Positions 1 to 19,565 of a DNA stretch of 64,000 nt are shown piece by piece; position 1 is the stretch's first letter; every line of letters begins with the position of its first letter. This DNA comes from Cellulomonas avistercoris (GTDB lineage: Bacteria > Actinomycetota > Actinomycetes > Actinomycetales > Cellulomonadaceae), in NCBI RefSeq assembly GCF_014836445.1, contig NZ_JACSQV010000009.1, positions 75,512-139,511 of the forward strand. Direction: 5' to 3'. The notes beneath the pieces were generated by a model. It was not told the origin of the DNA, searched no databases, and was given only the letters and a program-made list of their open reading frames with translations. Position numbers and translations under genes: made by a program.

Positions 1-2
1 GG

Positions 3-1118
3 GGGGCGCCCGCGGACGCCGCCGCGACGGCGTCCGCCCTGGCCTCCGCGAGCCCGTCGGCCACCCCCGACGTCGAGGAGGTCGAGCCGCCCGAGGAGCT
101 CGACCTCGACGCCGTCGTCAGCGCGCCGACGTTCCCGCTGGAGTCGACGAGCGCCGAGCTCCACGGGGCCGTGCGGACCGTCGAGTCCACCGAGCGGGTC
201 GAGGTCACGCTCGGGTCCGACGTGCTGTTCGCGTTCGACTCGGCCGACCTGACGCCGGAGTCCGCCCAGGCCGTCGCGCTGGTCGCGCAGCGCCTCGGCG
301 AGCGGGAGCCGGGCACGGTCGACGTCGTCGGCCACACCGACGACCAGGCCGACGACGCGTACAACCGCGACCTGTCACGACGACGCGCGCAGGCGGTCGC
401 GGACGCGCTCGCGGCGCAGGCCGGCGGTGCGGGGCACCGCATGCGGGTCGACGGGCGCGGGGAGTCCGAGCCGGTCGCGGCCAACACGTCCGACGAGGGG
501 CGGGCGCTCAACCGTCGCGTCACGGTCTCGCTCACGTCCAAGGTCGTCACGCGCACCGACGTCACGACGGAGGGGGAGCTGCCGCCCTTCGGCGCGCACG
601 TCGGCCCCGCGGGGACGCCGCTGCGCGTCGAGACGTACGCCCGCGTGTGGGAGGTCGACGCGTCGGCCCGCCGCGTGCACGGCCACGTGGTCGTCGACCT
701 GACCGTGCACGCCGCGGACGACGAGGACGGCCTGGGCTGGGCCGTCGGCTTCCTGCGCGGGTTCTCGTCCCACCGCGCCGGCGACACCGTCACGCCGCAC
801 GACATCACCGCCCGCGGCACGGTCCTGCAGGGCGCGTCCCGGCTGTTCCCGCTGGACTACCGCGTCGCGGTGGACGAGACGTGGCCCGACGGCGAGTGGT
901 TCACCGCGTCGGACCTCGACGCCGGCCACTGGATCGACGGCGGCCAGACCCGGACGTACTCGTTCGTGTACCCGCGGCTCGACGTGGACAGCGTGGTGTT
1001 CCAGGCCGGGACGGGCGTCGCGTTCGACGACGACTTCCGCCTCGTCGACGTCCCGGTCGCACCCGAGGTCGCCGCGACCGCGACCCCGGGCGCGCCCACG
1101 GACGACGCGACCCCCTGA
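3..1118 (+). CDS. OmpA-domain protein, 5' end outside the window
   Basis: The reading frame is open to the left edge, so the true start lies upstream; GTG at 171 is only an internal codon. The visible part begins with an Ala/Ser/Pro- and then Glu-rich stretch, followed by an OmpA/MotB peptidoglycan-associated domain: FAFDSADLTPES, VVGHTDDQ and an NRDLSRRRAQAV segment match its conserved strand, loop and helix. About 190 residues of unassigned sequence follow, containing a conserved-looking Trp/Tyr-rich region. OmpA domains bind diaminopimelate-type peptidoglycan, so a cell-wall-attached exported protein is likely. The signal peptide, if any, is not visible. It ends 22 bases before the two small membrane-protein genes on the other strand. 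Confidence 0.8.
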   Translation, partial: GAPADAAATASALASASPSATPDVEEVEPPEELDLDAVVSAPTFPLESTSAELHGAVRTVESTERVEVTLGSDVLFAFDSADLTPESAQAVALVAQRLGEREPGTVDVVGHTDDQADDAYNRDLSRRRAQAVADALAAQAGGAGHRMRVDGRGESEPVAANTSDEGRALNRRVTVSLTSKVVTRTDVTTEGELPPFGAHVGPAGTPLRVETYARVWEVDASARRVHGHVVVDLTVHAADDEDGLGWAVGFLRGFSSHRAGDTVTPHDITARGTVLQGASRLFPLDYRVAVDETWPDGEWFTASDLDAGHWIDGGQTRTYSFVYPRLDVDSVVFQAGTGVAFDDDFRLVDVPVAPEVAATATPGAPTDDATP

Positions 1119-1139
1119 GCGGCGGCCCGCGCGGCGGCC

Positions 1140-1253
1140 TCAGGTCAGCAGCGGGTGGACGGCGTAGACGAGCCCCACGAGGGCCGCGAGGCAGATGGCG
1201 AGGCCCGACCAGACCAGCAGCCGGGCGATCCGGCGCGTCCGGTCCTCGTCCAC
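1140..1253 (-). CDS. Small single-span membrane protein (37 aa)
   Basis: A 37-codon frame starting with GTG three bases after the stop of the neighbouring small gene. It has a charged N-terminus (MDEDRTRRIARLL) and one hydrophobic segment of about 20 residues (LVWSGLAICLAALVGLVYAV) ending in HPLLT. Nearly every codon ends in G or C, as in real genes here. No family is recognised. Tandem placement with the 44-residue protein upstream suggests co-expression, perhaps as a small membrane pair. It could be a chance frame. Confidence 0.5.
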   Translation of the reverse strand: MDEDRTRRIARLLVWSGLAICLAALVGLVYAVHPLLT

Positions 1254-1256
1254 GGC

Positions 1257-1391
1257 TCAGCCGACCAGCTGCACGAGGAGCACCACGACGGCCGCGACGA
1301 CGAGCACCACGGCCAGGCCGAGGACGACGCGACCCAGCTGCCGGCGACGTGACTCGTCGCCCCAGGGTTCGTGGTGACCGCTGCCCCGCAT
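1257..1391 (-). CDS. Small single-span membrane protein (44 aa)
   Basis: ATG-started frame with a polar, basic N-terminal half (MRGSGHHEPWGDESRRRQLG) and a Val/Leu-rich transmembrane segment at the C-terminus. Third codon positions are almost all G or C. The stop is followed three bases later by the GTG of a second small membrane protein, so the two probably form one unit. No known family recognised; function unknown. Confidence 0.5.
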   Translation of the reverse strand: MRGSGHHEPWGDESRRRQLGRVVLGLAVVLVVAAVVVLLVQLVG

Positions 1392-1519
1392 CGCGCACCT
1401 CGCCGGTCGTCGGGCTCGCTCTCCACTCTGCCCGTCGTCCGGCGGGAGCGCACCCGGGCGCGGCGGCCCGGGGCGCGGGCTGCCCGCCTGCGGCCTCGGG
1501 CGGCGCGTGCCATGATCCG

Positions 1520-2422
1520 ATGATGAGCGCAGGGGGACGGCGCACGATCATGGTGACCGGTGCTGCCGGTCCCGCCGGACGCGCGCTGGGCGCGCAGCTC
1601 GTCGGACGCACCGACGGCGACCTGCGGGCCGTCGGGGCGGACCTGAACCCGGTGCCCGTCACGGGGTTCGAGACGGTCGAGGCGGTCCCGGCCGCCGGTG
1701 ACCCGCGCTACGAGCCCGCGATGCTCGACCTGATCGCGCGCGTGGGACCGAACCTGGTGATCCCGACCGTGTCCGAGGAGCTGCCGCGCATCGCGGTCCT
1801 CGGGCGTGCCGCGGGGCTCGGCAGCACGCTCGTCGGGTCGACGGCCTCGGCGGCGGCGGTCGCGGGGGACAAGCTCCTGACGATGTGGACGCTCGCGCGC
1901 GCGGACGTCGCGGTCCCGGCGTTCGCCCCGGCCGACGCGTTCGCGTCCGCGGCGGACGCGCTCGCGTGGGCCGGCGGTCCGGTCGTCGTCAAGCCCCGCG
2001 TCGCCCGCGGTGGTCGCGGCGTCCACGTGGTCGACCGGCCGGACGACCCCGTGTGGGAGCAGGTCGACGCAGCCTGGGTGGTGCAGGTGTTCGCCCCCGC
2101 GGTGGAGTACAGCCCGCAGGTCTACCGGTCGCCCGACACGGGGCGGACCGTCGTCGTCGTGCTGCAGAAGGCGGCCCTCGAGCAGGGCCTGGTCGGCAAC
2201 GCCACGGCCGTCGAGCGCCTGCCCGAGGGGGCCGCCCCGGACGTCGCCGCCCTCGCGCTGCGCACGGTGGAGGCCCTGGACCTCGTCGGGCCGGTCGACA
2301 TGGACGTGCGCCGCCTCGCCGACGGCGTGCCCGTGGTGCTCGAGGTCAACGCCCGGTTCGGCGCCGTGTCGGCCTCCGCGCCGGAGATCCTCGACGCGCT
2401 CCTCGACGACTGGCCGGCCTGA
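1520..2422 (+). CDS. ATP-grasp ligase (CarB/PylC-like)
   Basis: A 300-residue protein (from the first of two adjacent ATGs) with an N-terminal Rossmann-like nucleotide segment (IMVTGAAGPAGRALG), a pre-ATP-grasp part, and an ATP-grasp core: GDKLLTMWTLARADVAVP, the strand GPVVVKPRVARGGRGV that carries the phosphate-binding loop, and the C-terminal Mg-binding strand VVLEVNARFG. ATP-grasp enzymes join a carboxylate to an amine or thiol through an acyl phosphate; the substrate cannot be read from sequence. The stop is four bases before the ATG of the glycosyltransferase, indicating an operon with it and the following exported protein, so a role in modifying or building a surface glycan is plausible. 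No strong ribosome binding site decides between 1520 and 1523. Confidence 0.82.
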   Translation: MMSAGGRRTIMVTGAAGPAGRALGAQLVGRTDGDLRAVGADLNPVPVTGFETVEAVPAAGDPRYEPAMLDLIARVGPNLVIPTVSEELPRIAVLGRAAGLGSTLVGSTASAAAVAGDKLLTMWTLARADVAVPAFAPADAFASAADALAWAGGPVVVKPRVARGGRGVHVVDRPDDPVWEQVDAAWVVQVFAPAVEYSPQVYRSPDTGRTVVVVLQKAALEQGLVGNATAVERLPEGAAPDVAALALRTVEALDLVGPVDMDVRRLADGVPVVLEVNARFGAVSASAPEILDALLDDWPA

Positions 2423-2426
2423 CGCG

Positions 2427-3710
2427 ATGTCGGTGCTCGTCGCGCTGCTGACGTCGCTCGTGGTCGTCGTCGGCGCGTCGCTGCTGGTCGTGGGGCTCAT
2501 CCGCCTGGCCTTCGTCCCCGCGGCCGTCGTCTTCGAGGTCCGGCAGCGGCGCGCGACGCCCGGGCCCGCCGGCTGCGGCCCGCTCTTCACCGAGCCGCCG
2601 TCGGTCAGCGTCGTCGTCCCGGCGTACGAGGAGGCGCTGCTCATCGGCAACTGCGTCGAGTCGATCCTGCGCAGCGACCACCCGCGCCTCGAGGTCGTGT
2701 GCGTCGACGACGGGTCGTCCGACGGCACGTACGCGCGGATGCGCGAGCTGGCCGCGGCCGATCCCCGGGTGCACGCGATCCACCAGGAGAACGCGGGCAA
2801 GGGCGCCGCGCTCAACACCGGGATCGCGGCGGCGCGGGGTGACGTGCTCGTGCTGGTGGACGCCGACGGCCTGTTCCGGCCCGACACCCTGACCCGGCTG
2901 CTCCGCGGCTTCCGCAGCGAGCGCGTCGGGGCCGTGTGCGGCAACGACCGGCCCGTGAACCTCGACCGGGTCCTGACGCGCCTGCTGTCGCTCATCAGCC
3001 ACGTCGGCACCGGCCTGATGCGGCGCGCCCTCGACGTGCTGGGGTGCATGCCCGTCGTGTCGGGCAACGTGGGGGCCTTCCGGCGCGACGTGCTCGAGGT
3101 CGTCGGACCGGTCCGCACGGACACCCTGGGCGAGGACCTCGAGCTGACGTGGCGCGTGCACCGCGCGGGGTACGGCGTGACGTTCGCGCCCGACGCGCTC
3201 GTGTTCGCCGAGTCGCCGTCGAGCGTGCGCGGTCTGTGGCGGCAGCGGGTGCGGTGGGCCCGCGGGCTGCTGCAGGCGACGGCGCTGCACCGCACGATGA
3301 TCGGCAACCCGCGCTACGGCCCGTTCGGCGTGTACCTGCTCTACAACACGCTGGCGCAGGTGGTCGCGCCCTTCCTGCAGGTGCTGGGCGCGGTGGTGCT
3401 GGTCGTGCTGGTGCTCGTCCAGGGCACGAGCTGGCTGCCGTCGTCCCTGTGGCAGTGGCTGCTGCTGGTCGGCCTGCCCCTGTCGTTCGTCCTGCTGGTC
3501 GTCGCCGTGCTCATGGACCGGTCGCCGCGCGACCTGCGCTACCTGTGGACCGTCGGCCTGTGGCCCGCGTACTCGGCGCTCATGACGTTCGTCGTGCTCG
3601 ACGCCGCGCGGCTCGAGATCGGGAGAGCGGAGAACAAGTGGAACAAGCTGGAGCGCAGCGGGACGGTGTCGGTGAGCGGCCTCGTCGAGGAGCAAGGTCC
3701 TGGGTCGTGA
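2427..3710 (+). CDS. GT2 processive glycosyltransferase, membrane-bound
   Basis: A 427-residue family 2 glycosyltransferase. It has an N-terminal membrane segment (residues about 3-30), the GT-A domain with SVSVVVPAYEE, the UDP-binding VCVDDGSSDGT, the DxD motif in LVLVDADG, the acceptor-site GEDLELTWR and the QxxRW-type RQRVRWARG that marks processive synthases, then three hydrophobic segments toward the C-terminus. This is the architecture of poly-N-acetylglucosamine (PgaC/IcaA), hyaluronan and cellulose-type synthases, which polymerise and export a beta-glycan from UDP-sugars. The GTGA at its end overlaps the start of the next gene. The sugar is not determinable here; the nearby PIG-L deacetylase makes a GlcNAc polymer attractive but unproven. 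Confidence 0.88.
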   Translation: MSVLVALLTSLVVVVGASLLVVGLIRLAFVPAAVVFEVRQRRATPGPAGCGPLFTEPPSVSVVVPAYEEALLIGNCVESILRSDHPRLEVVCVDDGSSDGTYARMRELAAADPRVHAIHQENAGKGAALNTGIAAARGDVLVLVDADGLFRPDTLTRLLRGFRSERVGAVCGNDRPVNLDRVLTRLLSLISHVGTGLMRRALDVLGCMPVVSGNVGAFRRDVLEVVGPVRTDTLGEDLELTWRVHRAGYGVTFAPDALVFAESPSSVRGLWRQRVRWARGLLQATALHRTMIGNPRYGPFGVYLLYNTLAQVVAPFLQVLGAVVLVVLVLVQGTSWLPSSLWQWLLLVGLPLSFVLLVVAVLMDRSPRDLRYLWTVGLWPAYSALMTFVVLDAARLEIGRAENKWNKLERSGTVSVSGLVEEQGPGS

Positions 3711-4852
3711 TCCTGCTGGGCTCGCTCCTCGCCGTGGTCGTGGTCGCGGTCGTCGTCGCACGGCCCTGGCAGGACGTGCCGCCCCCGCTGCGGTCGTCGT
3801 CGCCTCCTCAGTCGCTGCGCTCGGTCAGCGTGGACTTCGGCATCGTGACGGACCCGGCGACCGACTGGGCGGCCCTCGACGGACACCTCGACGAGGTCGG
3901 GGCCACGGGCGTCGAGCTCAACGCCGGTCGCGTCGAGTTCACGGCGTTCGACTGGGACGCGTACCCCGACGCGGCGGCCGAGCCGGGGAGCGACCACCTC
4001 GCGCGGGCCGCGCGGGCGCTGCGGCTGACGGCCGACGGCGAGCAGCGGCAGATCGGGCTCATCGTCGACGCGTTCGTCCCGGTGTGGATCACGCAGGACC
4101 CGTCGATCGCGGGGGTGGCCCCGGACGGCACGTCGGCGACCTCCACGGCGTCCGCGACGCAGCTGGCGCGGGGGGCCGTCGGCGACCGGCTGGTGCAGTA
4201 CGTGGCCGCGCTGGGCGCGCGCTACGAGCCGAGCCAGATCGCGATCACCGAGCTGTTCCTCGACCGCTACTCCTTCGGCGACGACGACCTCGAGCTGTTC
4301 CGGGAGATGACCGGGGCGATCGACTGGCCCCGCACCGCCGACGGGCTCCCGGACGACAGCGACGCGGCCGTGGGGGCGTGGCGCACCGAGGTGCTGGCGG
4401 GGCTGCTGACGCGCATGCGCTCCGCGCTGGACGCGGTGGACGGGGGGCGGGGCGCGCAGATCGAGCTCGCGATGGAGGTGCAGGTCGACTGGGACGACCC
4501 GGGGCGGGGCTCACCGGGCGTCGGGCAGGACTACGACGTCCTGCTGCGTGCGGCCGACCGGCTCGTCGTGTGGGCGTACCTGTTCGGTGTGCTGCCGGCC
4601 ACCGACGTCGGCCGCCTGACCGCCGCGCTCGCGGGCGAGGGCTACGACATGTCGCGCTTCACCATCTCGGTGGGGATGTGGGCGCCGGGCTCGGTCGACC
4701 CGCCGGACGCCATCTCCCCCGAGCTGATGGCGGAGGCGGTCGAGCAGGCCGCGACCAACGGCGTGACCGACGTCAACGTGACGCCGACGAGCCTGCTGAC
4801 GGACGAGGACTGGGCGGCCCTGGCCGCCGTGTGGAACCCCACGCCGGGCTGA
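3707..4852 (+). CDS. Membrane-anchored glycosidase-like (TIM-barrel type) protein
   Basis: A 381-residue protein starting at a GTG that overlaps the glycosyltransferase stop (GTGA). It opens with an uncleaved-looking signal anchor (VILLGSLLAVVVVAVVVARPW) and a Pro/Ser linker. The rest contains repeated strand-helix patterns with acidic ends (VDFGIVTDP, GVELNAGRVEF, QIGLIVDAFVPVW, QIAITELFLDRY, IELAMEVQVDWDDP, DRLVVWAYLFGV, RFTISVGMWAPG), which is how glycoside hydrolase TIM barrels look, and is reminiscent of the C-terminal glycosidase-like half of PgaB. No exact family is recognised. Operon position after a processive synthase suggests processing of the exported polymer at the cell surface. 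Confidence 0.6.
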   Translation: MILLGSLLAVVVVAVVVARPWQDVPPPLRSSSPPQSLRSVSVDFGIVTDPATDWAALDGHLDEVGATGVELNAGRVEFTAFDWDAYPDAAAEPGSDHLARAARALRLTADGEQRQIGLIVDAFVPVWITQDPSIAGVAPDGTSATSTASATQLARGAVGDRLVQYVAALGARYEPSQIAITELFLDRYSFGDDDLELFREMTGAIDWPRTADGLPDDSDAAVGAWRTEVLAGLLTRMRSALDAVDGGRGAQIELAMEVQVDWDDPGRGSPGVGQDYDVLLRAADRLVVWAYLFGVLPATDVGRLTAALAGEGYDMSRFTISVGMWAPGSVDPPDAISPELMAEAVEQAATNGVTDVNVTPTSLLTDEDWAALAAVWNPTPG

Positions 4853-4866
4853 GGGCCTGCGCCCGC

Positions 4867-6618
4867 TCAGGGCTCGCCGGTCGCCTGCTCCTCGAGGTCG
4901 GGCAGCACCACCTCGACCTGCGTGCCGCTGCCCAGCTCGCTGTCGATCGTGAGCGTGCCGCCGTGCTCGGCGACGATCGCCTGGACCAGCGAGAGCCCCA
5001 GGCCGACCCCGCGCACGCGACGTCGCTTCGTCTCGCGCGTGCGGTAGAACCGCTCGGTGAGGCGCGAGAGCTCGTCGGGCGCGATGCCGGCGCCCTGGTC
5101 CACCACGCGGATGCGGGCCGTGCGTGCCCCCTCCGGGGAGGCGCCGGCGTGCACCTCCACCACCACCCGGTCACCTGCGAGGCTGTGCTTGACGGCGTTG
5201 CTCACCAGGTTGTCCACGATCTGCGTCAGCCGCTGCGGGTCCGACAGCAGCGGCACGGGCCCGTCGGCGTCGACGTCGACCCGCACGCCCGCGGCGCGCG
5301 AGACGGGAGCCTGGCTGGTCACGGCGGCGCGGACGACCTCACCCACGTCGACCTCCTGCGCCGCCAGGGGCGCACCGACGACCACCTGGGCGCTCGCGAG
5401 CAGCTCGTCGACCAGCGAGCGCAGCCGGTTCGCGTTGCGCTCGACGACGTCGAGGTACCGGCTCTGCTCGTCGTCGAGCACGTGCTCGCCGGACCGGATC
5501 AGCTCGAGGTACCCCAGGATCGACGCGAGCGGCGTGCGCAGCTCGTGGCTGACCAGCCCGATGAACTCGTCCTGCTGCCGCTGCTCCTCGCGCCGGGGGG
5601 TGACGTCGGTGCCGACGAACAGGTAGCCGGCGGGCAGCGCGGGGCCCGTCCCGTCGAGCGCGGGCCGCAGGGTGGCGACGAGCTCGAGGTAGCGGGTGGT
5701 GCCGTCGGCCAGGACGACGCGCCACTCCTCGACGTGCGTCCCGCCGTCGGCCGCGCTCCCGACGAGCCGGCCGAGCGGGACCCCCGCGTGGTCCTGCGGG
5801 GCGGCCGGGCCCGGGTCGGCCACGAGGTCACCGACCTCGTGACCGACGAGCTCGTCCGCCGCCCGTCCGAGGATGCGCTCGGCACCCGAGTTGGCCGACA
5901 CGACGACGCCGTCGAGGTCCGTCGCGACGATGGCCTGCTCCGTGGCGGCCTCGATGATGCTGCTCAGCGTGTCGCGCGACGCCCGCAGCTGCTCGGCGCG
6001 CACGTCGAGCGCGTCCCGGGCGCGCTGGAGCTCGCGCGCCTGCACCCGCGAGGCCTGCACGATGCCGTAGGCACCGACCACGGTCGGGACGACGACGAGG
6101 AGCGTGACGACCGCGTGCAGCAGCGGCTGCCTGCGGTCGACGTCGACGACCGCGGGGGCCAGCAGCACGACCGTGCACATCGCGAGCGCGAGCGCCGGGC
6201 CCCAGCGCTCGGGCCGCAGCGCGAGCATGCCCATCGGCAGGATGAGCAGGATGTCGAACTCCGCCATCTGCAGGCCCGTGCCGATGTCCAGGAGACCGAT
6301 CGCGGCCATCTGCGTGAGCGGCAAGGTGGCGCGCCAGACGGGCCGCAGGTACTTCCACGGCACGAAGACGCCCGCGAGCTGGGCGAGCCCGACGAGGACG
6401 GCCGCGGCGGCCAGCAGCCCCGGACGCTCGGGCGTGACGGTGGACTCGACGACGACCAGGGAGACCAGGATGGAGACCGTCGCCGGTGCCTGCCGCAGCG
6501 CGACCGCGTCGGGCGCGAGCCAGCCGACCGCGACGCGCTCGAGCAGGGCGCGCGTCATGGGGTCCGTCTCGTCGGTGTCCGACCACGCCGGCCACGTGCG
6601 GCGCGCGGCGCCCGTCAC
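4867..6618 (-). CDS. PAS sensor histidine kinase
   Basis: A 583-residue kinase from a GTG at 6618 whose GTGA overlaps the stop of the upstream response-regulator gene; an ATG at 6558 is an alternative start. The first about 200 residues hold five or six hydrophobic segments, then a coiled linker (ARELQRARDALDVRAEQLRASRDTL), a PAS domain (IVATDLDGVVVSANSGAERILG), the HisKA box with FIGLVSHELRTPLASILGYL, and a complete HATPase domain (N box NLVSNAVKHS, G1 VVDQGAGIAPDEL, G2 GVGLGLSLVQAIV). It should autophosphorylate on the His of SHELR and pass the phosphate to the overlapping regulator. Periplasmic loops are short, so the signal is probably sensed in the membrane or by the PAS domain. Confidence 0.92.
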   Translation of the reverse strand: MTGAARRTWPAWSDTDETDPMTRALLERVAVGWLAPDAVALRQAPATVSILVSLVVVESTVTPERPGLLAAAAVLVGLAQLAGVFVPWKYLRPVWRATLPLTQMAAIGLLDIGTGLQMAEFDILLILPMGMLALRPERWGPALALAMCTVVLLAPAVVDVDRRQPLLHAVVTLLVVVPTVVGAYGIVQASRVQARELQRARDALDVRAEQLRASRDTLSSIIEAATEQAIVATDLDGVVVSANSGAERILGRAADELVGHEVGDLVADPGPAAPQDHAGVPLGRLVGSAADGGTHVEEWRVVLADGTTRYLELVATLRPALDGTGPALPAGYLFVGTDVTPRREEQRQQDEFIGLVSHELRTPLASILGYLELIRSGEHVLDDEQSRYLDVVERNANRLRSLVDELLASAQVVVGAPLAAQEVDVGEVVRAAVTSQAPVSRAAGVRVDVDADGPVPLLSDPQRLTQIVDNLVSNAVKHSLAGDRVVVEVHAGASPEGARTARIRVVDQGAGIAPDELSRLTERFYRTRETKRRRVRGVGLGLSLVQAIVAEHGGTLTIDSELGSGTQVEVVLPDLEEQATGEP

Positions 6619-7679
6619 TCGCCCGGGCCGTCCCCGGCGGTCTGCGTCCACTCGACGGCCGGGGCGCCGCGCACGTGCGACGCGACCGTCTCGGTGGCGC
6701 GGACGGTCTCGAGCGGCTCGACGTCGTCGGCCCTGCTGAACCGTGCCCAGTAGCGCGTCGTCGCGCGGACCATGTCGGGTCGCATGTAGTCGCGGTGGGA
6801 CTGCGACTCGTAGGCCGCGAGCATCTGGAGCTTGGTGTCGACGAACCCCTCGACGTCGACGAACCGGGTGGGAGCGAAGGCGACGGTGGACGACGGGCTC
6901 TGGAAGCACCACACGTTCGGCACCTGGCGCGCCGCGATCTCCACGGCCTCGTGCACCGCGCGGTGGTCCTGGTGGCGGTCGTGCGCGCCGTGCGTGTAGA
7001 TGCGGTCGGGCTGGACCTCGGCGATGACGCGCTCGATCGCGGTGATGATGCCCTCGGCGGGGACCAGGCGGGTGTCGGGGAAGTCGAGGTGGACCAGGCG
7101 GGCGCCCACGACCGCCGCGGCCGCCGCGGCCTCCGCCTGGCGGACGGTCGTGCTGCCGCCCACGGCCCCGCCCGACAGCGTGAGGATCACCAGGTCGTCA
7201 CCGGCTGCGCTGTGCGCGGCCAGGGTGGCCCCGACGCCGATCTCGACGTCGTCCGGGTGGGCCCCCACGGCGAGGATGCGCTGCCGGTGGCCGGCCCGGC
7301 GCTCGCGGGCGGCCTGCGCGAGCTCGGTGGCCCGCCGCACGACCTCCGTGGACGGCACGGGCTTGACGAGGAACTCGTCCGCGGCCTCCCGCAGCGCCTC
7401 GACGGCGTGGTCGAAGGTCGGGTAGGCCGTGACGACCATGACGGTGATCGCCGGGTCGAGCCGGCGCACCTCGGGCAGGATGTCCAGCCCCGAGCGCCCG
7501 GGCAGCTGGATGTCGGTCACGAGCACGTCGAAGGTGCTGCGGCTCAGGGCAGCCAGCGCGCCTTCCGCCGTGGCCGCGACGGCGACGACCATCCCCTCGC
7601 GCTCGAGCGCGATCCGCAGGAGCTCCGCCGCGTCGGGGTCGTCCTCGAGGACGAGTGCGCGGTACCGGTCGTCTGGCAT
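6615..7679 (-). CDS. Response regulator fused to PIG-L/LmbE deacetylase
   Basis: A 354-residue protein with two complete domains. Residues about 7-120 are a receiver: acidic pair D13/D14, phospho-acceptor D56 in LVTD56IQLPGRSG, T84 and K106 in FLVKPV. From about residue 134 follows a PIG-L/LmbE N-acetylglucosaminyl deacetylase fold with the zinc motif AHPDD at 140-144 (ILAVGAHPDDVEIG), TLSGGAVGG, LDFPDTRLV, the second metal motif HDRHQDHRAVH and FAPTRFVDV. There is no DNA-binding domain, so the output of this two-component system should be an enzyme. Family members remove acetyl from GlcNAc-type substrates (MshB, BshB, PIG-L). The kinase gene overlaps its stop. The first ATG (MPDDRYRAL) is well placed just before the receiver. 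Confidence 0.9.
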   Translation of the reverse strand: MPDDRYRALVLEDDPDAAELLRIALEREGMVVAVAATAEGALAALSRSTFDVLVTDIQLPGRSGLDILPEVRRLDPAITVMVVTAYPTFDHAVEALREAADEFLVKPVPSTEVVRRATELAQAARERRAGHRQRILAVGAHPDDVEIGVGATLAAHSAAGDDLVILTLSGGAVGGSTTVRQAEAAAAAAVVGARLVHLDFPDTRLVPAEGIITAIERVIAEVQPDRIYTHGAHDRHQDHRAVHEAVEIAARQVPNVWCFQSPSSTVAFAPTRFVDVEGFVDTKLQMLAAYESQSHRDYMRPDMVRATTRYWARFSRADDVEPLETVRATETVASHVRGAPAVEWTQTAGDGPGE

Positions 7680-7921
7680 GGTCCCCCCGGGCCTGGACGT
7701 GTACCGCCACTGTAGGAAGCCGGGGGCGGGACCGCCCGACGAGCGGTGCCCCGCGGCGGTGGTGCGTCCACGATCGGGGGACACCGGCCGGGTAAGTCGT
7801 GGGATGTCGTGACTTCTCGGGCGTGATCGTTCACCGTGGGGCGTGGCGTCGTCCGGCATCCCGCGGGCGGCGTCGCCCCACGGCCGACCAGCCGCGGGTC
7901 CCGCGACGAAGGGACACCACA

Positions 7922-9496
7922 GTGACAGCTCGACGCACCACCACGCTCGCCGGGGCGCTCGCCGTGCTCGTGCTCGGGACGAGCGCCCTGCTCGCACCGC
8001 CCGCCACGGCCCACGGGCCGGGCGGCAAGCCGGGACCCGGCCACGGGCCGGGGCACACGATCGACGCCGAGCGCTTCGCCCGCCAGGTCACGACGCGCGG
8101 TGTGTGGCGGCACCTGGAGGAGCTCCAGCGCATCGCGGACCGGCACGACGGCAACCGGGCCGCCCTCACCGAGGGCTACGAGGCGAGCGCCCGGTACGTC
8201 GAGCGCACCCTGCAGCGCGCCGGGTACACGACCACGCGCGACCCGTTCACGTTCGGCCTGGAGGTCGTCGACGCCGCGAGCCTGGCCCTCGGCACCGGCG
8301 AGACGTACGAGGTCGACCAGATGCAGTACGCACCGAGCTCGCCCGAGGGCGGCGTCACGGCGCCGGGCTCGACGCCGACCGACACCACCGGCTGCACGGC
8401 CGACTCGTGGGCGGGCGTCGAGGTGACCGGCACGATCGCCGTCGTCAGCCGCGGGGAGTGCGCGTTCGCGGACAAGGCCGTGGCCGCCGAGGCCGCCGGC
8501 GCCGTGGGCGTCGTCGTCTACAACAACGTCGAGGAGATGCTCTTCGGCACCCTCGGTGCGGAGGGCCTCGTGAGCGTGCCCGTCGCCGGCATGGGCCAGG
8601 CCGACGGGCTGGCCGTCGTCGAGGCCGTGGCCGCGGGCGTGGAGCTCACCCTGGACACCCGGTTCCACACCGAGGAGCGCGAGACCTTCAACGTCGTCGC
8701 CGAGACGCGCGCGGGCCGCGACGACAACGTCGTCATGCTCGGGGCGCACCTCGACGGCGTCGAGGAGGGCCCGGGGCTCAACGACAACGGCAGCGGCTCG
8801 GCCGTCCTGCTGGAGGTCGCCGTGCAGCTCGCGAAGCAGAAGAAGCTGAACAACACCGTCCGGTTCGCCTGGTGGGGCGCCGAGGAGCTGGGGCTCCTGG
8901 GCTCGACGGCGTACGTCGACGAGCTCGCGGGTCAGGAGGGTGAGCTCGACCGCATCGCCACGTACCTCAACTTCGACATGGTGGGTTCGCCGAACTACAT
9001 CATCGGCGTGTACGACGCCGACCAGTCCACGTACGAGGCGCCCGTCGAGGTCCCCGAGGGTTCGGCGCAGACGGAGGCCGTCCTCACGGGGTGGTTCGAC
9101 CGCACGGGTCAGCCGTGGGTCGACACGGAGTTCTCGGGCCGCTCGGACTACCAGGCGTTCATCCTCAACGGGGTCCCGGCGTCCGGCCTGTTCACCGGTG
9201 CGGACGACATCAAGACCGAGGAGGAGGTCGCGCTCTTCGGCGGCACGGCGGGGATCCGCCACGACCCGAACTACCACACGGTCGGTGACGACCTGGCGAA
9301 CGTGAGCCGGGAGGCGATCGGCATCATGGCGCCGGCCGTGGCCTTCGCGACCGCGAGCCTCGCGACGGACACGTCGGCGATCAACGGCGTGTCGGGTCCC
9401 GGCGACCAGGGGCACCACCACGGCCCGTGGAAGCCGGGCAAAGGGCACGGCCACGGCCGTGGCCACGAGCACGGCACGCTGCAGAAGGCGTCCTGA
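7922..9496 (+). CDS. Secreted M28 zinc aminopeptidase with PA domain
   Basis: A 524-residue exported peptidase. GTG start with GAAGGGA eight bases upstream. The signal peptide (RRTTTLAGALAVLVLGTSAL...ATA) is followed by a catalytic region split by a protease-associated domain at about residues 130-255 (GTIAVVSRGECAFADK, AVGVVVYNN). The M28 zinc sites are visible: VMLGAHLDGV, GLNDNGSGSA, WWGAEELGLLGS, LNFDMVGSPN and the late His in RHDPNYHTVGDD. These enzymes release N-terminal amino acids from peptides outside the cell. The C-terminus is His/Gly/Lys-rich (HHHGPWKPGKGHGHGRG), as is the start of the mature protein, perhaps aiding metal binding. A strong terminator follows. Confidence 0.93.
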   Translation: MTARRTTTLAGALAVLVLGTSALLAPPATAHGPGGKPGPGHGPGHTIDAERFARQVTTRGVWRHLEELQRIADRHDGNRAALTEGYEASARYVERTLQRAGYTTTRDPFTFGLEVVDAASLALGTGETYEVDQMQYAPSSPEGGVTAPGSTPTDTTGCTADSWAGVEVTGTIAVVSRGECAFADKAVAAEAAGAVGVVVYNNVEEMLFGTLGAEGLVSVPVAGMGQADGLAVVEAVAAGVELTLDTRFHTEERETFNVVAETRAGRDDNVVMLGAHLDGVEEGPGLNDNGSGSAVLLEVAVQLAKQKKLNNTVRFAWWGAEELGLLGSTAYVDELAGQEGELDRIATYLNFDMVGSPNYIIGVYDADQSTYEAPVEVPEGSAQTEAVLTGWFDRTGQPWVDTEFSGRSDYQAFILNGVPASGLFTGADDIKTEEEVALFGGTAGIRHDPNYHTVGDDLANVSREAIGIMAPAVAFATASLATDTSAINGVSGPGDQGHHHGPWKPGKGHGHGRGHEHGTLQKAS

Positions 9497-9529
9497 CGGC
9501 GCTCGTGACGCGCTGACGCGCGGGTGACC

Positions 9530-9564
9530 GGCGGCCCGGGCTCCTCCAGGGGGCTCGGGCCGCC
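9530..9564 (+). terminator. Rho-independent-type hairpin after M28 gene
   Basis: Arms 9530-9544 (GGCGGCCCGGGCTCC) and 9550-9564 pair over 15 positions with one G-T type mismatch and a five-base loop. It lies 33 bases past the peptidase stop. No T tract follows, which is usual in high-GC actinobacteria. Confidence 0.7.
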
Positions 9565-9881
9565 GCACGTCCGGGTCGTCGACCGGCATGCGGCGCTACG
9601 GGTGGAGGGGTGGTGCGTCGTCGTTGGCGTGGCCGCCCAGCCCCGCAGGAGACGGGCGACATCCTGCTCCTTCGAGCAGGCTCTTGCCAAGACCCTTCGT
9701 GACCTTTTCTTGACCTGCGGGCGCCGAAGCGTCAAGCCGAGGGGTGCGCGATGGTCGCAGATGGTCGATTTGTAACAAAGATGTGAAGATTCTCACCCCT
9801 GCGAGACACTGCAGCCGGTCAAGGAGGAGTATCCGAGGTGGCCGCCCAGCCTCGCGCCCAACCCGGCGCTCCCGCCTCGAC
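9565..9881 (+). promoter_or_regulatory. AT-richer orphan leader with strong ribosome binding site
   Basis: This 317-base gap holds no convincing gene. From about 9690 the base composition falls (CCTTTTCTTGACC, ATTTGTAACAAAGATGTGAAG), as in promoters here, with paired GTGACC/TTGACC and GTAACA/GTGAAG half-sites. A near-perfect AAGGAGG at 9821-9827 precedes a GTG at 9838, but the frame closes after about 59 codons, antisense to the Xre gene. It looks like the leader of a gene whose body is no longer here. Confidence 0.35.
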
Positions 9882-10136
9882 TCACGCGCCGATGCGCGGG
9901 AACGGGTCCAGGGAGAACGCGACCTCGACGGGCACGTCGAAGAACGCGGCGATCCGCAGCGCCAGGTGCAGGGACGGGCTGTACTCGCCCCGCTCGAGGT
10001 ACCCGACCGTCTGGTAGTGCACCCCGAGAGCGTCCGCGAGCTCGCGGCGGCTCACGCCGCGCTCGGCACGCAGCACCGCGATCCGGTTGTGGACGGACTC
10101 CCCGCCCGGCGGACGTCGACGTGCCTCCTCGGCCAC
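9882..10136 (-). CDS. Xre-family transcriptional regulator
   Basis: An 84-residue protein from GTG at 10136, two bases after the permease stop. After a basic N-terminal tail, residues about 16-72 form a Cro/C1-type helix-turn-helix: NRIAVLRAERGVSRRELADALGV, HYQTVGYLERGEYSPSL, LALRIAAFFDVPVEVAFSL. Such tiny Xre proteins commonly sit at the end of ABC-2 exporter operons and control them. Its target may be the perfect palindrome over the start of the operon's first gene. Confidence 0.85.
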   Translation of the reverse strand: MAEEARRRPPGGESVHNRIAVLRAERGVSRRELADALGVHYQTVGYLERGEYSPSLHLALRIAAFFDVPVEVAFSLDPFPRIGA

Positions 10137-10138
10137 CC

Positions 10139-11029
10139 TCAGCCCCGCACCAGCGTCTGGAGGCGGTCCGCGAGCGCGCTCGCGGTCTGCCGGGCGGTCG
10201 ACCGGCGCAGCACGACCGGCGCGGCGACGAGCCCGACGACGGCCCACGCGACGAGCACGAGGGCGGCGATCCCCGGGTGCCACGCGCCGCCGAGCTCGAG
10301 CGCCTCCGCGCCCGCCGGCAACGTCGTCGAGCGCAGCCCGTGGGCGAGCCAGTACAGCGGGAACGCCTGGACGGCGCCGGACGCCCAGGGCGGCACGGTC
10401 TGGGCACCGAAGACGCCGGAGAGGAACGCCAGGGCGACGACGGGAGTCATGACGAAGAGCATGACGCGTGTCGGGCGCGCCGCGAGGGCGCCGCCCACGA
10501 TGCCGATCGGCAGCGTCGCCAGCGTGCCGAGGAGCAGCCAGCCCACGACGGCGACCCATCCGCCCGGTCCCTGGTGCATCGGGTCGCCGAGCAGGAACGG
10601 CCACGGCACCAGCAGGATCACCAGCATGGGCAGGGCGCCCAGCGCCTGGCTGACGACGACGCCGACCGTGTACGTCGTCGTGCCCCGGGGAGTGGTGCGC
10701 ATGCGGAGCACGGTGCCCTCCTCGACCTCGGTGGCCAGGGCGAAGGCGGGGCCCATGACCATGCCGAACAGGATGGTGGCGGCCAGGATGCCGGGCAGCG
10801 CCACGTCGGGGAGCGTCAGGCCGCCGCTGCCGGGGACGGTCGTGCCGCGCTGCGTGACGAGGTACACCAGGATCCCGATCCCGATCACGACGTTCCATCC
10901 CACGTCCTCGGGGTTGCGCAGCATGTGCCGGAACTCCGTGACGCCGCGGCGCAGGCCGAGGCGCACGGCCCAGGCGCGGGGCGACGGCGCGGTGCGGGCG
11001 GGCGTCGCAGGGCGTGCGGGCGTGCTCAT
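10139..11029 (-). CDS. ABC-2 type exporter permease
   Basis: A 296-residue membrane protein with about six hydrophobic segments, starting ATG inside a four-base overlap with the ATPase stop. N-terminal cytoplasmic arm (RLGLRRGVTEFRHMLRNPEDVGW) precedes TM1 (NVVIGIGILVYLV). The motif-like ATEVEEGTVLRMRTTPRG between the second and third segments is typical of DrrB/NatB-like ABC-2 permeases, which export drugs, lipids or polysaccharides. It forms the membrane half of the transporter with the gene before it. Confidence 0.87.
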   Translation of the reverse strand: MSTPARPATPARTAPSPRAWAVRLGLRRGVTEFRHMLRNPEDVGWNVVIGIGILVYLVTQRGTTVPGSGGLTLPDVALPGILAATILFGMVMGPAFALATEVEEGTVLRMRTTPRGTTTYTVGVVVSQALGALPMLVILLVPWPFLLGDPMHQGPGGWVAVVGWLLLGTLATLPIGIVGGALAARPTRVMLFVMTPVVALAFLSGVFGAQTVPPWASGAVQAFPLYWLAHGLRSTTLPAGAEALELGGAWHPGIAALVLVAWAVVGLVAAPVVLRRSTARQTASALADRLQTLVRG

Positions 11030-11937
11030 CGCGTGACCGCCAGGTCCCGGTGCGCGGCGTCGGTCTCGTGCCGGCGGACGATGTCGAGGTACGCGTCCTC
11101 GAGGCTGGCGCGGACCACCTCGAGGTCCTCCACGCCGCCGGTCGCGAGGAGCTCGCGCGTGAAGGCGACGGGGTCGTGCGTGCTGTGCACGTGCCGGGCC
11201 CCGCCGGCGCTCCAGCGCACCTCGGACGGTCCGGCGACCTCCCGCGCGACCGCGGCCGGGCTGCCCGCGGCGACGATGCGGCCGCCGGCGAGCAGCAGGA
11301 TGCGGTCGGCGACCGTCTCGGCCTCCGCCAGGTCGTGCGTGGTGAGCAGGGCGACGGTGCCGTCACGGTCCACGACCTCGTGGACGAGCTCGTGGAACTC
11401 GCGGCGCGCGGCGGGGTCGAGACCGGCGGTGGGCTCGTCGAGGATCAGGAGGTCGGGTCGGCCGACGAGCCCGACGGCGACGTCGAGGCGGCGGCGCTGA
11501 CCACCGGAGAGGGTCGACATGCGCTGGTCGGCCGCGTCGGTGAGCCCGACGCGCGCGAGCAGGTCGTCGACGTCGCGCGGCCGGGCGGCCCCGTCGGTCG
11601 CGTAGGGCCGGTAGCTGTCGGCGAGGTGGCCGAGCAGCTCGCGGACCCGCCACCGCCGGTGGTCGCGCCACGACTGCAGGACGACGCCGATGCGTGCGCG
11701 CCAGGCGTCGTCACCGTCCTCGGGGTCGGTGCCGAGCACGGTGACGTCACCGGCGTCGCGCCGGCGGAACCCCTCGACGATCTCGACGGTGGTGGTCTTG
11801 CCGGCGCCGTTGGGCCCCAGGAGCGCGACGACCTCGCCCGGTGCGACGTCGAAGTCGACGCCGTCGAGGACGGTGCGCTCGCCGTACGCCATGCGCAGCC
11901 CTGCGACGTGCACGGCGGCACTCTCGACGGTGTCCAT
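11026..11937 (-). CDS. ABC exporter ATPase (DrrA-like)
   Basis: A 303-residue nucleotide-binding protein: Walker A GPNGAGKTTTVEIVEGF, Q loop VVLQSWRDHRRW, signature LSGGQRRRLDVAVGL, Walker B LLILDEPTAGLD, H loop LLTTHDLAEAETVAD, and a C-terminal regulatory extension that includes HVHSTHDPVAFTRELL. It is first in a three-gene operon with the permease and Xre regulator. Its ATG (11937-11935) lies inside a perfect inverted repeat, so both transcription and translation may be controlled there. No clear Shine-Dalgarno precedes it. Confidence 0.93.
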   Translation of the reverse strand: MDTVESAAVHVAGLRMAYGERTVLDGVDFDVAPGEVVALLGPNGAGKTTTVEIVEGFRRRDAGDVTVLGTDPEDGDDAWRARIGVVLQSWRDHRRWRVRELLGHLADSYRPYATDGAARPRDVDDLLARVGLTDAADQRMSTLSGGQRRRLDVAVGLVGRPDLLILDEPTAGLDPAARREFHELVHEVVDRDGTVALLTTHDLAEAETVADRILLLAGGRIVAAGSPAAVAREVAGPSEVRWSAGGARHVHSTHDPVAFTRELLATGGVEDLEVVRASLEDAYLDIVRRHETDAAHRDLAVTR

Positions 11938-11957
11938 GTAGTAGGTCTACTACATGG
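11934..11957 (-). promoter_or_regulatory. Perfect 11-bp inverted repeat over ATPase start codon
   Basis: CCATGTAGTAG at 11934-11944 and CTACTACATGG at 11947-11957 are exact reverse complements with a two-base centre. The ATPase start codon is inside the proximal arm. A TATAGC -10-like hexamer lies at 11975-11970 on the same strand, which would place the start of transcription near 11963 and the operator at about +6 to +30. It fits a repressor site for the operon's own Xre protein; as RNA it could also hide the start codon in a hairpin. Confidence 0.6.
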
Positions 11958-12017
11958 CATCGTAGGTGCGCTATAGCAGTCGGGCGGTTTCCTCCGGGTT
12001 CACCCGAGGTGAGCCGC

Positions 12018-12446
12018 TCACCCCCGGCCCGGCCCGGCGACGTTGACCATCCAGCCGACACCGAACCGGTCGGTGCACATCCCGAACTCGTCGCCCCACG
12101 GCGCGACCTCCATCGGCACCCCGGGGGTTCCGCCCTCCGAGAGGCGCGCGAACACCGCGCGCAGCGCCTCGGCGTCCTGCGGCCCGCCGAACAGCGCGAC
12201 CGATGCCGAGGTCTCGTCCGGGACCGGCATCCCCGCGGGTGCGTCCGACGCCATGAGGAGGCCACCGCCCGCGGGCAGCTCGAGCTGGGAGTGCATGATC
12301 TTGCCCGCGTCCGCGGGGTCCTGCGCCATGCCGTACTCGTCGAACGTGCTGAACGTCGGCTCGGCGCCGAAGACCTCGCCGTAGAACTCCATCGCGGCGC
12401 GGGCCTCGGTGCGGAAGTTCAGGTAGGGGCTGATGCGGGCGGTCAT
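12018..12446 (-). CDS. VOC/PhnB-like glyoxalase-fold protein
   Basis: A 142-residue protein beginning MTARISPYLNFRTEARAAMEFY with an excellent GGAGG upstream, which decides this ATG over the one at 12488. The layout (YLNF..AMEFYGEVFGAEPTF, MHSQLELPAGGGLLMASD, VALFGGPQDAEALRAVFARL, PWGDEFGMCTDRFGVGWMVNV) is that of PhnB/YjdN-type vicinal oxygen chelate proteins, often binding small molecules or metals. Substrate unknown. It stands alone on this strand. Confidence 0.85.
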   Translation of the reverse strand: MTARISPYLNFRTEARAAMEFYGEVFGAEPTFSTFDEYGMAQDPADAGKIMHSQLELPAGGGLLMASDAPAGMPVPDETSASVALFGGPQDAEALRAVFARLSEGGTPGVPMEVAPWGDEFGMCTDRFGVGWMVNVAGPGRG

Positions 12447-12568
12447 GTGGTCCTCCGGTTGCTCGTGCCGACGTGAGGTACCGACCACGTCGGCGGCCGT
12501 GACTCACCGGGTGCACCCCGCGCCGCTGCGGCGCGGTTAGGGTGATCGTGACCCCCCGGAGGACCCCC

Positions 12569-12715
12569 ATGTGCTACCCCACCCCCTGCCCGACGTGCGG
12601 CCTGACCACCTGGGCCGGCTGCGGCGAGCACGTCGACTCCGTGCGCGCCCAGGTGCCCGACGCGCAGTGGTGCACCTGCGACGCCGAGGCGGTGACGCCG
12701 ACACCCGTCGGCTGA
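12569..12715 (+). CDS. Small Cys-rich conserved protein (48 aa)
   Basis: A 48-residue protein with GGAGGA nine bases before the ATG. It starts MCYPTPCPTCGLTTWAGCGE and ends near QWCTCDAE, with seven cysteines in CxxC-like spacing plus a His. I recognise this as the widespread small protein beginning MCYPxxCxxCGKTTWxGCGxH found in many actinobacteria and some fungi; its function is not established to my knowledge. Zinc binding is likely from the cysteine pattern. It directly precedes the S9 peptidase gene by 18 bases and may be co-transcribed. Confidence 0.8.
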   Translation: MCYPTPCPTCGLTTWAGCGEHVDSVRAQVPDAQWCTCDAEAVTPTPVG

Positions 12716-12733
12716 GGGTGATAGGACGGGGGC

Positions 12734-14848
12734 ATGACGACACCCCCCGACGGCGACCTCCCGGCCGCCACGCCCTTCCACGACCTCGACGCGTACGTCG
12801 CGCTGCCGCGCCTGTCCGGCCTCGTGCTCTCGCCCGACGGCACACGCCTCGTCACGGGCGTCCAGACCCTCGACCGCAAGCGCACCGGGTACGTCACGGC
12901 GCTGTGGGAGGTCGACCCCGCCGGTGAGCGCCCTGCGCGACGCCTGACGCGCTCGGCCAAGAGCGAGTCGTCCGCGGCGTTCACCCCCGCCGGCGACCTG
13001 CTCTTCACCAGTGCGCGCCCGGACCCCGACGCGCAGGACCCCGACGCCGAGCCCACGGCCGCGCTGTGGCTGCTGCCCGCCGACGGCGCCGAGGCCCGCG
13101 TGGTCGCCGACCGTCGCGCCGGCGTCGGCGGCGTGCAGGTCGCGACGGACGCGCCCACGGTCCTCGTCGTGTCCGACGTGCTGCCGTCGGCGAGCGACCC
13201 GGCCGACGACGACCGCCGTCACCAGGAGCGCAAGGAGGCCAAGGTGGCCGCGATCCTGCACACGGGCTACCCGGTGCGCTACTGGGACCACGACCTCGGC
13301 CCCGGCTCGCCGCACGCGCTGGTCGCGACGGTCGGCAGCGACGTCGCCGCGCCGCGCGCCGGCGAGAGCGACCCCCGGCTCGACCTGCGGGACGTCACCC
13401 CGGACGCGCGCATCGAGCTGCTGGAGCAGTCGCCCGCGCTCAGCCCCGACGGTCGCACGGTCGTCACACCGTGGAACCGCGGGGGAGCGCGCGGCGAGCT
13501 GCGCACCCACCTGGTGGCCGTCGACGTCGCGACGCGCGAGCGTCGCGTGCTCGTCGAGGACGAGGCCGGGGACATCGGGCACCCCGTCGTGTCGCCCGAC
13601 GGGCAGTGGGTCGCCTACGCCCGCGAGACGCTCTCGACGCCCCACCGCGCACCGGCCGTCGAGCTGTGGGTCGTGCCGTTCGCGGGCGGTGAGCCCCGCC
13701 GCCTCGCCGCCGGCTGGGACCGCTGGCCGTCGAGCCCGGTCTGGCTGCCCTCGTCCGACGCGCTCCTGGTGGTCGCCGACGACGACGGCCGTGCGCCGGT
13801 GTTCCACGTGGAACTGAGCTCCGACACCGTGACGCGCGTGACCAGCGACGACGCGGCGTTCTCCGACGTGCGCGTGAGCCCCGACGGCCGGACCGCCTAC
13901 GCGCTGCGCACGTCCTACGAGGCGCCCGCGCACCCCGTGCGGATCGACCTCGCGGCCGCGCTCGCGGGCGCGCCCGTCGCGGCGGAGGCGCTGCTGTCGC
14001 CCGCCGCCGACGTCCCGCTCCCGGGACGCCTGGAGGAGGTCGTGACGACGGCCGCCGACGGCACGCGGGTGCGCTCCTGGCTCGCCCTGCCCGACGGCGC
14101 CGGCCCCGACGCGAAGGCGCCGCTGCTGCTGTGGATCCACGGCGGACCGCTCGGCTCGTGGAACGCGTGGTCGTGGCGGTGGAACCCGTGGCTGATGGTC
14201 GCGCGCGGCTACGCCGTGCTGCTGCCGGACCCCGCGCTGTCGACCGGCTACGGCCAGGACTTCGTGCAGCGCGGCTGGGGATCCTGGGGTGCGGCGCCGT
14301 ACACGGACCTGCTCGCCGCGACCGACGCCGCGCTCGAGCGCGACGACCTCGACCCCGAGCGCACGGCCGCGATGGGCGGGTCGTTCGGCGGGTACATGGC
14401 CAACTGGGTCGCGGGGCACACCGACCGCTTCCGCGCGATCGTCACGCACGCGAGCCTGTGGGCCCTCGACCAGTTCGGCCCCACGACGGACGCGGCGTAC
14501 TACTGGCAGCGCGAGATGACGCCCGAGATGGCGATGGAGAACTCGCCGCACCGGTTCGTCGGCGACATCGTCACGCCGATGCTGGTCGTCCACGGCGACA
14601 AGGACTACCGCGTGCCCATCGGCGAGGGCCTGCGCCTGTGGTACGAGCTGCTGTCGTCCTCCGGCCTGCCCGCCGACGAGCACGGCCGCAGCCCGCACCG
14701 GTTCCTCTACTACCCGGACGAGAACCACTGGATCCTGCAGCCGCAGCACGCCAAGGTCTGGTACGGCACGGTCGAGGCCTTCCTCGCCGAGCACGTCCTG
14801 GGCCGCACGGGCGACGACGCGGTCCGCTACCCGGACCTGCTGGGCTGA
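12734..14848 (+). CDS. S9 family prolyl oligopeptidase
   Basis: A 704-residue serine peptidase. The N-terminal half is a beta-propeller with repeated SPDG(T/R) blades (VLSPDGTRLV, LSPDGRTVV, VSPDGQWVAYA, VSPDGRTAYAL). The C-terminal alpha/beta hydrolase domain has the oxyanion region LLWIHGGPLGSWN, nucleophile S550 in MGGSFGGYMANW, Asp near 624 in HGDKDYRVP and His near 665 in PDENHWIL. There is no signal peptide, so it acts in the cytoplasm, where acylaminoacyl- and dipeptidyl-type members trim short peptides. It ends 15 bases before a long terminator hairpin. Confidence 0.92.
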   Translation: MTTPPDGDLPAATPFHDLDAYVALPRLSGLVLSPDGTRLVTGVQTLDRKRTGYVTALWEVDPAGERPARRLTRSAKSESSAAFTPAGDLLFTSARPDPDAQDPDAEPTAALWLLPADGAEARVVADRRAGVGGVQVATDAPTVLVVSDVLPSASDPADDDRRHQERKEAKVAAILHTGYPVRYWDHDLGPGSPHALVATVGSDVAAPRAGESDPRLDLRDVTPDARIELLEQSPALSPDGRTVVTPWNRGGARGELRTHLVAVDVATRERRVLVEDEAGDIGHPVVSPDGQWVAYARETLSTPHRAPAVELWVVPFAGGEPRRLAAGWDRWPSSPVWLPSSDALLVVADDDGRAPVFHVELSSDTVTRVTSDDAAFSDVRVSPDGRTAYALRTSYEAPAHPVRIDLAAALAGAPVAAEALLSPAADVPLPGRLEEVVTTAADGTRVRSWLALPDGAGPDAKAPLLLWIHGGPLGSWNAWSWRWNPWLMVARGYAVLLPDPALSTGYGQDFVQRGWGSWGAAPYTDLLAATDAALERDDLDPERTAAMGGSFGGYMANWVAGHTDRFRAIVTHASLWALDQFGPTTDAAYYWQREMTPEMAMENSPHRFVGDIVTPMLVVHGDKDYRVPIGEGLRLWYELLSSSGLPADEHGRSPHRFLYYPDENHWILQPQHAKVWYGTVEAFLAEHVLGRTGDDAVRYPDLLG

Positions 14849-14863
14849 CACCCGCGGCGCCGG

Positions 14864-14901
14864 CACCGGGAAGTGGTCGCCCAGGTGACCACTTCCCGGT
14901 G
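14864..14901 (+). terminator. 15-bp perfect-stem terminator between convergent genes
   Basis: CACCGGGAAGTGGTC (14864-14878) and its exact reverse complement (14887-14901) enclose an eight-base loop. It lies between the S9 peptidase and a convergent gene and so can serve both. It is part of a longer repeat also found near 59.5 kb. Confidence 0.8.
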
Positions 14902-14930
14902 CCCGCCGCGCAGATGCGACCACTCACGCG
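14864..14930 (+). repeat. Dispersed repeat element, copy A
   Basis: Three modules occur: GGGAAGTGGTC (14868-14878), GTGACCAC six bases later (14885-14892) and ATGCGACCAC ending 23 bases further on (octamer 14916-14923), followed by ACGCGG. The element at 59464-59530 has the same modules with the same 6- and 23-base spacings. The 5' part doubles as a terminator here. Confidence 0.6.
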
Positions 14931-14963
14931 GGGCGAGGGCCGCAGGGCCCGCCGGCACCGGGG

Positions 14964-19519: not shown

Positions 19520-19565
19520 CCGGGGCCGCTGGGCGCCCGGCGCCGACAGCAGGGGGCTGCCGCCG

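Follow-up and report, generated by a model that had tools for sequence, protein, structure and literature searches.

Organization of the locus

The window analysed here is a 64,000-nucleotide stretch of Cellulomonas avistercoris DNA, and toward its left end lie two convergent groups of genes (Table 1). On the plus strand, genes for an ATP-grasp ligase, a membrane GT2 glycosyltransferase and an anchored protein form a compact set; on the minus strand, a response regulator gene, in which a receiver domain is joined in frame to a PIG-L/LmbE domain, is followed by a sensor histidine kinase gene. The latter two overlap by exactly four bases (GTGA), as the first-pass annotation had stated. The start of the anchored protein gene overlaps the GT2 stop by GTGA, and this gene stops 14 bases short of the end of the convergent kinase gene. 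The start codon of the ATP-grasp gene is uncertain (1520, 1523 or 1550). A plus-strand reading frame at the coordinates of the fusion gene, for which the first-pass annotation named no strand, is open as well, but was judged to be a shadow ORF.

Table 1. Coordinates of the fusion gene, its domains, its neighbours in the window and the paralogous locus.
Feature	Coordinates	Strand	Remarks
Receiver-PIG-L fusion response regulator	7679..6615	minus	ATG start, TGA stop, 354 aa
Receiver domain	7335..7655	minus	Pfam PF00072 Response_reg, residues 9-115, E 2.9e-24
PIG-L/LmbE domain, part matched by Pfam	6933..7274	minus	PF02585, residues 136-249, E 1e-26
Sensor histidine kinase, 583 aa	6618..4867	minus	GTG start; PAS, HisKA, HATPase_c; five hydrophobic segments
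ATP-grasp ligase	1523..2422	plus	PF02655, PRK12767-like
Membrane GT2 glycosyltransferase	2427..3710	plus	QxxRW; best NCBIfam model PgaC_IcaA, below cut-off
Anchored protein with predicted glycosidase-type barrel	3707..4852	plus	N-terminal hydrophobic segment; predicted fold nearest the PgaB C-terminal hydrolase
Paralogous locus L122, same genome	G000:C24:167000-184000, about 6441-12663		Complete: fusion, ATP-grasp, PHP, GT2, kinase

The kinase has all of its H, N, G1 and G2 boxes. The GT2 protein contains QRVRW, DAD and hydrophobic segments, and scores 191.2 bits against PgaC_IcaA (TIGR03937), far below the cut-off of 422.3; the GT2 proteins of loci L080 and L112 likewise fall below it (120.4 and 140.2 bits). 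The anchored protein matches no Pfam or NCBIfam family at E 0.001, and its structural model is mediocre (pLDDT 67.2). Using this model, VIA-align places the PgaB C-terminal hydrolase first (Z 23.7 to 22.7 for five entries, with the next family at 20.8), as does Foldseek (E 6.8e-8, the first unrelated barrel being beta-amylase at 7.6e-7). Since sequence searches give no support for kinship with PgaB, the likeness stays a lead from the predicted fold.

An OmpA-family domain protein, by which the nearest relatives of the genome are Cellulomonas, is encoded upstream of the ATP-grasp gene (171-1118). No Rfam family matched window positions 1-20000 at the gathering threshold. A role as a defence system was considered and rejected; with PADLOC, neither proteins P0002-P0006 nor the one PHP protein examined matched anything, bar a weak match of the receiver to SduA (21.1 bits) judged not meaningful.

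Domain architecture of the fusion protein

Both domains of the fusion protein match above the Pfam curated cut-offs, the PIG-L domain with 94.3 bits against a cut-off of 28.2, and its fold reaches to about residue 330, beyond the part matched by Pfam. The first-pass annotation described a complete receiver, and all of the residues it named are present: the acidic pair D13 and D14, the phosphoacceptor Asp D56, T84 and K106. It was equally correct in reporting no DNA-binding domain, with receiver and PIG-L being the sole Pfam matches at E 0.001. Its description of two intact zinc motifs stands for the first, AHPDD at residues 140-144, whereas the second was written one residue too long, as HxxDHxxVH; the actual motif is HQDHRAVH at residues 236-243 (HxDHxxVH), with HQDH at residues 236-239. 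We take H141, D144 and H239 to be the zinc triad and D143 the catalytic Asp, with D143 and H236 presumably matching the catalytic base and acid.

An AlphaFold2 model of the fusion, built on an alignment of 47 sequences (itself counted), has a mean pLDDT of 92.3 and a pTM of 0.77, from which the relative placement of the two domains is uncertain. In the model the two domains are linked by a single helix (residues 110-131), with the first deacetylase strand at 134-139. The best solved fold for the PIG-L domain is BshB (Z 27.7, 202 residues, rmsd 2.7, over 133-337), and the nearest folds include both BshB and diacetylchitobiose deacetylases; those for the receiver domain are receivers (3crn, Z 22.2). 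The deacetylase has no hydrophobic segment and therefore should act in the cytoplasm.

Distribution of the fusion family

Within the genus, 20 of 25 genomes (own genome counted) have the full-length fusion. It was found in none of 14 genomes representing the order's other families; three of these genomes have receiver-less relatives. Outside the genus it is rare. Evenly drawn, 296 genomes of the class included six with the fusion and 396 from the phylum included three, own genome counted in each. In the class to which Marinicella belongs, 274 genomes gave the fusion in the centre genome only, plus, in a second genome, a PIG-L match whose reading frame (210 aa) is too short to hold it. Among named records there are at least 80 fusion loci in six phyla, these being the best 80 of 539 confirmed relatives. 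By label, the best 80 comprise 59 Actinomycetota, 13 Pseudomonadota, 3 Myxococcota, and one each from Gemmatimonadota, Rhodothermota and Bacteroidota; two are unlabelled, one of which carries a (misspelt) Cellulomonas title. The family is thus wide but patchy. None of 697 matching plasmid records has one place covering 80% of the fusion.

The first-pass annotation had named, as grounds for doubt, a frameshift separating the two domains and the lack of a conserved fusion in related genomes. There is no sign of the former; the in-frame fusion recurs across relatives, including a 94%-identical gene in another Cellulomonas genome, so a frameshift artefact is untenable and a chimera is likewise ruled out. 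As to the latter, the genus and named-record counts above show that the fusion is conserved.

A second fusion, 361 aa and 60% identical to the first, is encoded in the same genome outside the window, and two paralogous fusion systems hence coexist in one genome. None of the four other PIG-L loci of this genome has an ATP-grasp, kinase, GT2 or PHP gene nearby, and genes of these four kinds are absent from the other three 16-kb quarters of the window.

For the comparisons below we assembled 95 fusions, consisting of the best 80 of the 539 relatives, the window fusion, its paralog, and 13 from genome searches, six of which were hand-picked from the 19 other genus genomes with the fusion. The set contains at least two duplicates that entered from two collections (L039 equals L133, and L078 equals L135, in the deacetylase domain), and L108, L113 and L114 are counted as fusions though the receiver profile fell short of threshold. 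D56 is kept in all 95, as is the zinc triad, and D143 and H236 are invariant in the 82 aligned. The seed patterns used to find relatives of the window protein include AHPDD, so that H141, D143 and D144 are conserved in part through the way the set was chosen, whereas D56 and H236-H239 are in no seed pattern.

Gene linkage

Linkage was scored with profiles built from the loci and run over six frames, the kinase profile being built from three sequences. An ATP-grasp gene lies near the fusion in 75 of the 95 loci, a GT2 gene in 69 and a PHP phosphoesterase gene in 57; the kinase, ATP-grasp and GT2 genes occur all together in 57, and neither ATP-grasp nor GT2 is found in 17. The first-pass annotation of the fusion made no mention of its ATP-grasp, GT2, PHP or PgaB-like neighbours. 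Control stretches gave ATP-grasp in 2/20, kinase in 2/20, GT2 in 1/20 and PHP in 0/20, the controls being hand-set stretches of 16.6 kb each from eight genomes of the set, 15 of them from three genomes. In 67/95 loci the gene immediately following the fusion, in the same orientation, is that of the ATP-grasp enzyme. The first-pass annotation had proposed counting the genomes in which a kinase is adjacent; a histidine kinase is nearby in 75 of the 95 loci, and directly downstream in only 12. Twenty fusions have no kinase in the examined stretch, several due to contig ends, at which the flanks of many loci stop (including those of the receiver-less L124, L149 and L150); six with canonical receivers lack one despite at least 6 kb on both sides.

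A single-domain receiver often lies beside the kinase. Four gammaproteobacterial loci (L086, L087, L111 and L112) have, beside the fusion, a hybrid kinase gene with an H-NOX gene next to it. These were identified by Pfam in L112 and by profile or cluster membership in the other three, and the arrangement suggests a nitric oxide or oxygen input to these loci. A GlmS-like glutamine amidotransferase/SIS protein is encoded near the fusion at L111:11897-13729 and hints at amino-sugar supply.

Receiver integrity and kinase presence

Across 104 loci, including the nine receiver-less relatives described below, a kinase is nearby in 72 of 86 with a canonical receiver and in 3 of 18 in which the receiver is absent or altered (Fisher p 8e-8, a value that takes the loci as independent though they are related). 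The 24 genome-search loci (the window, the paralog, the six chosen genus loci, and the matches of the relatives, class and phylum searches) give 13/14 and 0/10 when taken alone, and the best 80 of the 539 relatives alone give 59/72 canonical against 3/8 altered (p 0.012). Where both flanks reach roughly 6 kb or longer, the numbers are 58/64 and 2/13.

Fusions with altered receiver residues lack a kinase in six of nine cases and fall in at least four separate places in the tree: an alphaproteobacterial clade of five, L137, L114, and L096/L098. No kinase was found for the clade of five or L137. The kinase of L114 lies at a distance of 7.7 kb and was counted as present, while L096/L098 are non-canonical by D13N alone, with a kinase 1.1 kb away. 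In the L137 fusion (about 8014-8994) D13 and K106 are changed, D56 is kept, and no kinase lies in the stretch. L106, L108, L110, L113 and L115 similarly show altered receiver residues, no kinase in the stretch, and D56 kept. Kinase linkage could be inherited, related loci being non-independent. Nonetheless, the co-variation of receiver and kinase supports the phosphorylation control of the deacetylase predicted in the first-pass annotation, which we infer from this co-occurrence in the sequences.

Phylogeny and receiver-less relatives

The 95 fusions form one group in the tree (support 94/93, just below the program's mark of 95/80), and seven receiver-less relatives form one group outside them (81/88). 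The root depends on long-branched outgroup rows, one of which joins L150, and the placement of L150 and L151 is unsure. Six of nine receiver-less relatives have both ATP-grasp and GT2 genes, one of these with PHP as well, and none of the nine has a kinase. The simplest history, though not a proved one, is that an ancestral sugar-pathway PIG-L protein gained a receiver once, with the kinase alongside.

The window fusion belongs to a subgroup of six (with L132, L037, L038, L154 and L061; support 100/99) whose loci have the PgaB-like protein and yielded no PHP gene. Compared with their counterparts in loci beyond the subgroup, the ATP-grasp and GT2 proteins of the window show approximately 23 to 38% identity, and it would appear that the same enzyme classes stayed paired while the individual partner enzymes diverged or were replaced by others.

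Proposed function and alternatives

Judged from the sequences, the fusion is probably a kinase-controlled cytoplasmic deacetylase, a non-transcriptional response regulator output acting in a glycan or glycolipid pathway. D56 would be phosphorylated by the membrane kinase whose gene overlaps that of the fusion, and the phosphorylated receiver, tied by the long helix to the PIG-L domain, would switch the zinc deacetylase either on or off. On the inner side of the membrane the PgaC-like GT2 may make a lipid-linked sugar or a chain of GlcNAc type. The PIG-L domain would act in the cytoplasm to free an amine, whether of a precursor, of a lipid-linked sugar or of the nascent chain. A GlcNAc-type substrate, as put forward in the first-pass annotation, is plausible, with folds near those of BshB and the diacetylchitobiose deacetylases and a PgaC-like neighbour. 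The freed amine may be acylated by the ATP-grasp enzyme, a step proposed by analogy with MshB and MshC, likewise a deacetylase and an amide-forming ligase, and the least certain of the series. The set would be completed by the PHP phosphoesterase or, in the window, by the membrane-anchored PgaB-like protein. A broader proposal, which we offer only tentatively, is that these loci belong to a general class of signalling systems. In such systems a two-component kinase would control directly whether a cytoplasmic glycan precursor is N-acetylated, with the deacetylase as output, the ATP-grasp enzyme capping the amine and the PgaC-like synthase using or supplying the sugar.

That the pathway makes instead a soluble small metabolite, nucleoside-like or an amino-sugar conjugate, and not an envelope glycan, seems unlikely. 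BshB is the closest fold to the window PIG-L domain, PIG-L enzymes act in bacillithiol and mycothiol synthesis, and the PHP-type ATP-grasp of L080, the only one of its type scanned with Pfam, matches PF15632, a family named for a pathway associated with Ter operons. The ATP-grasp of the window does not match PF15632, however, its GT2 has hydrophobic segments, and GT2 genes are linked to the fusion in 69/95 loci, with QxxRW present in all 75 long GT2 matches; the window type moreover has an anchored, predicted glycosidase-type protein. We consider it quite unlikely that the receiver serves chiefly for structure or docking on an always active deacetylase, the nearby kinase serving other receivers such as a single-domain receiver. 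A further receiver, counting those within hybrid kinases, does occur in 50 of 81 loci, and fusions with altered receivers persist in the alphaproteobacterial clade of five, where none of the five stretches has a kinase. Against this, D56 is retained throughout the 95 fusions and the canonical residues co-vary with the kinase; in the window itself the kinase gene overlaps the fusion gene, and no further receiver was found within the first 16 kb. Finally, the PIG-L fold could here be another hydrolase, a hydratase or a binding module, and GalB, a hydratase, has the same fold (Z 26.4), but the complete conservation of the zinc triad, of D143 and of H236, together with a deacetylase as the best fold match, makes this very improbable.

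Relationship to known systems

Response regulators with enzymatic output are known, for example CheB and PleD, and they likewise have a complete receiver, a catalytic domain and a kinase gene nearby. The output of the fusion differs in being a PIG-L/LmbE zinc amidohydrolase in a putative sugar pathway, and not a methylesterase or an enzyme of cyclic-di-GMP turnover. The PIG-L domain shares its fold, AHPDD and HxDH with BshB, BC1534 and TT1542 (Z 27.7 to 27.0, 28% identity), but the fusion differs by its N-terminal receiver and its links to ATP-grasp, GT2 and kinase genes, and it scores 84.5 bits against BshB1 (TIGR04001), below the equivalog cut-off of 182.5. There are also parallels to the pga/ica systems for PNAG, in that PgaC_IcaA is the best match of the GT2, a deacetylase is encoded in the locus, and the window has the protein with a predicted fold like the PgaB C-terminus. 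The PgaB deacetylase, however, is an exported CE4 domain that acts after export, whereas that of the fusion is a PIG-L domain predicted to be cytoplasmic, and the GT2 scores below the PgaC cut-off. In mycothiol synthesis MshB and then MshC act in sequence, again a PIG-L deacetylase with an amide-forming ligase as its pathway partner; in the fusion loci the ligase is an ATP-grasp enzyme, the GT2 is a membrane protein, and control would be by a two-component system. No description of a receiver with PIG-L output was found in the titles and abstract openings of papers retrieved from an open-access library, and mention inside papers or surveys is possible; domain databases may well already contain the architecture.

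The receiver-less relatives, which keep the sugar genes in 6/9 cases and lack the kinase in 9/9, mean that the effect of adding a receiver can be tested by comparison. The PIG-L, ATP-grasp, PHP and GT2 enzymes together point to what may be a novel GlcN-type product. If phosphorylation does switch the deacetylase, sugar chemistry would come under the direct control of two-component signalling, and the fusions would be a new output class in several phyla. Under the broader, tentative proposal above, the charge and chemistry of surface glycans or glycolipids would be set fast and without transcription, with nitric oxide or oxygen, sensed through H-NOX, as the input in some gammaproteobacteria.
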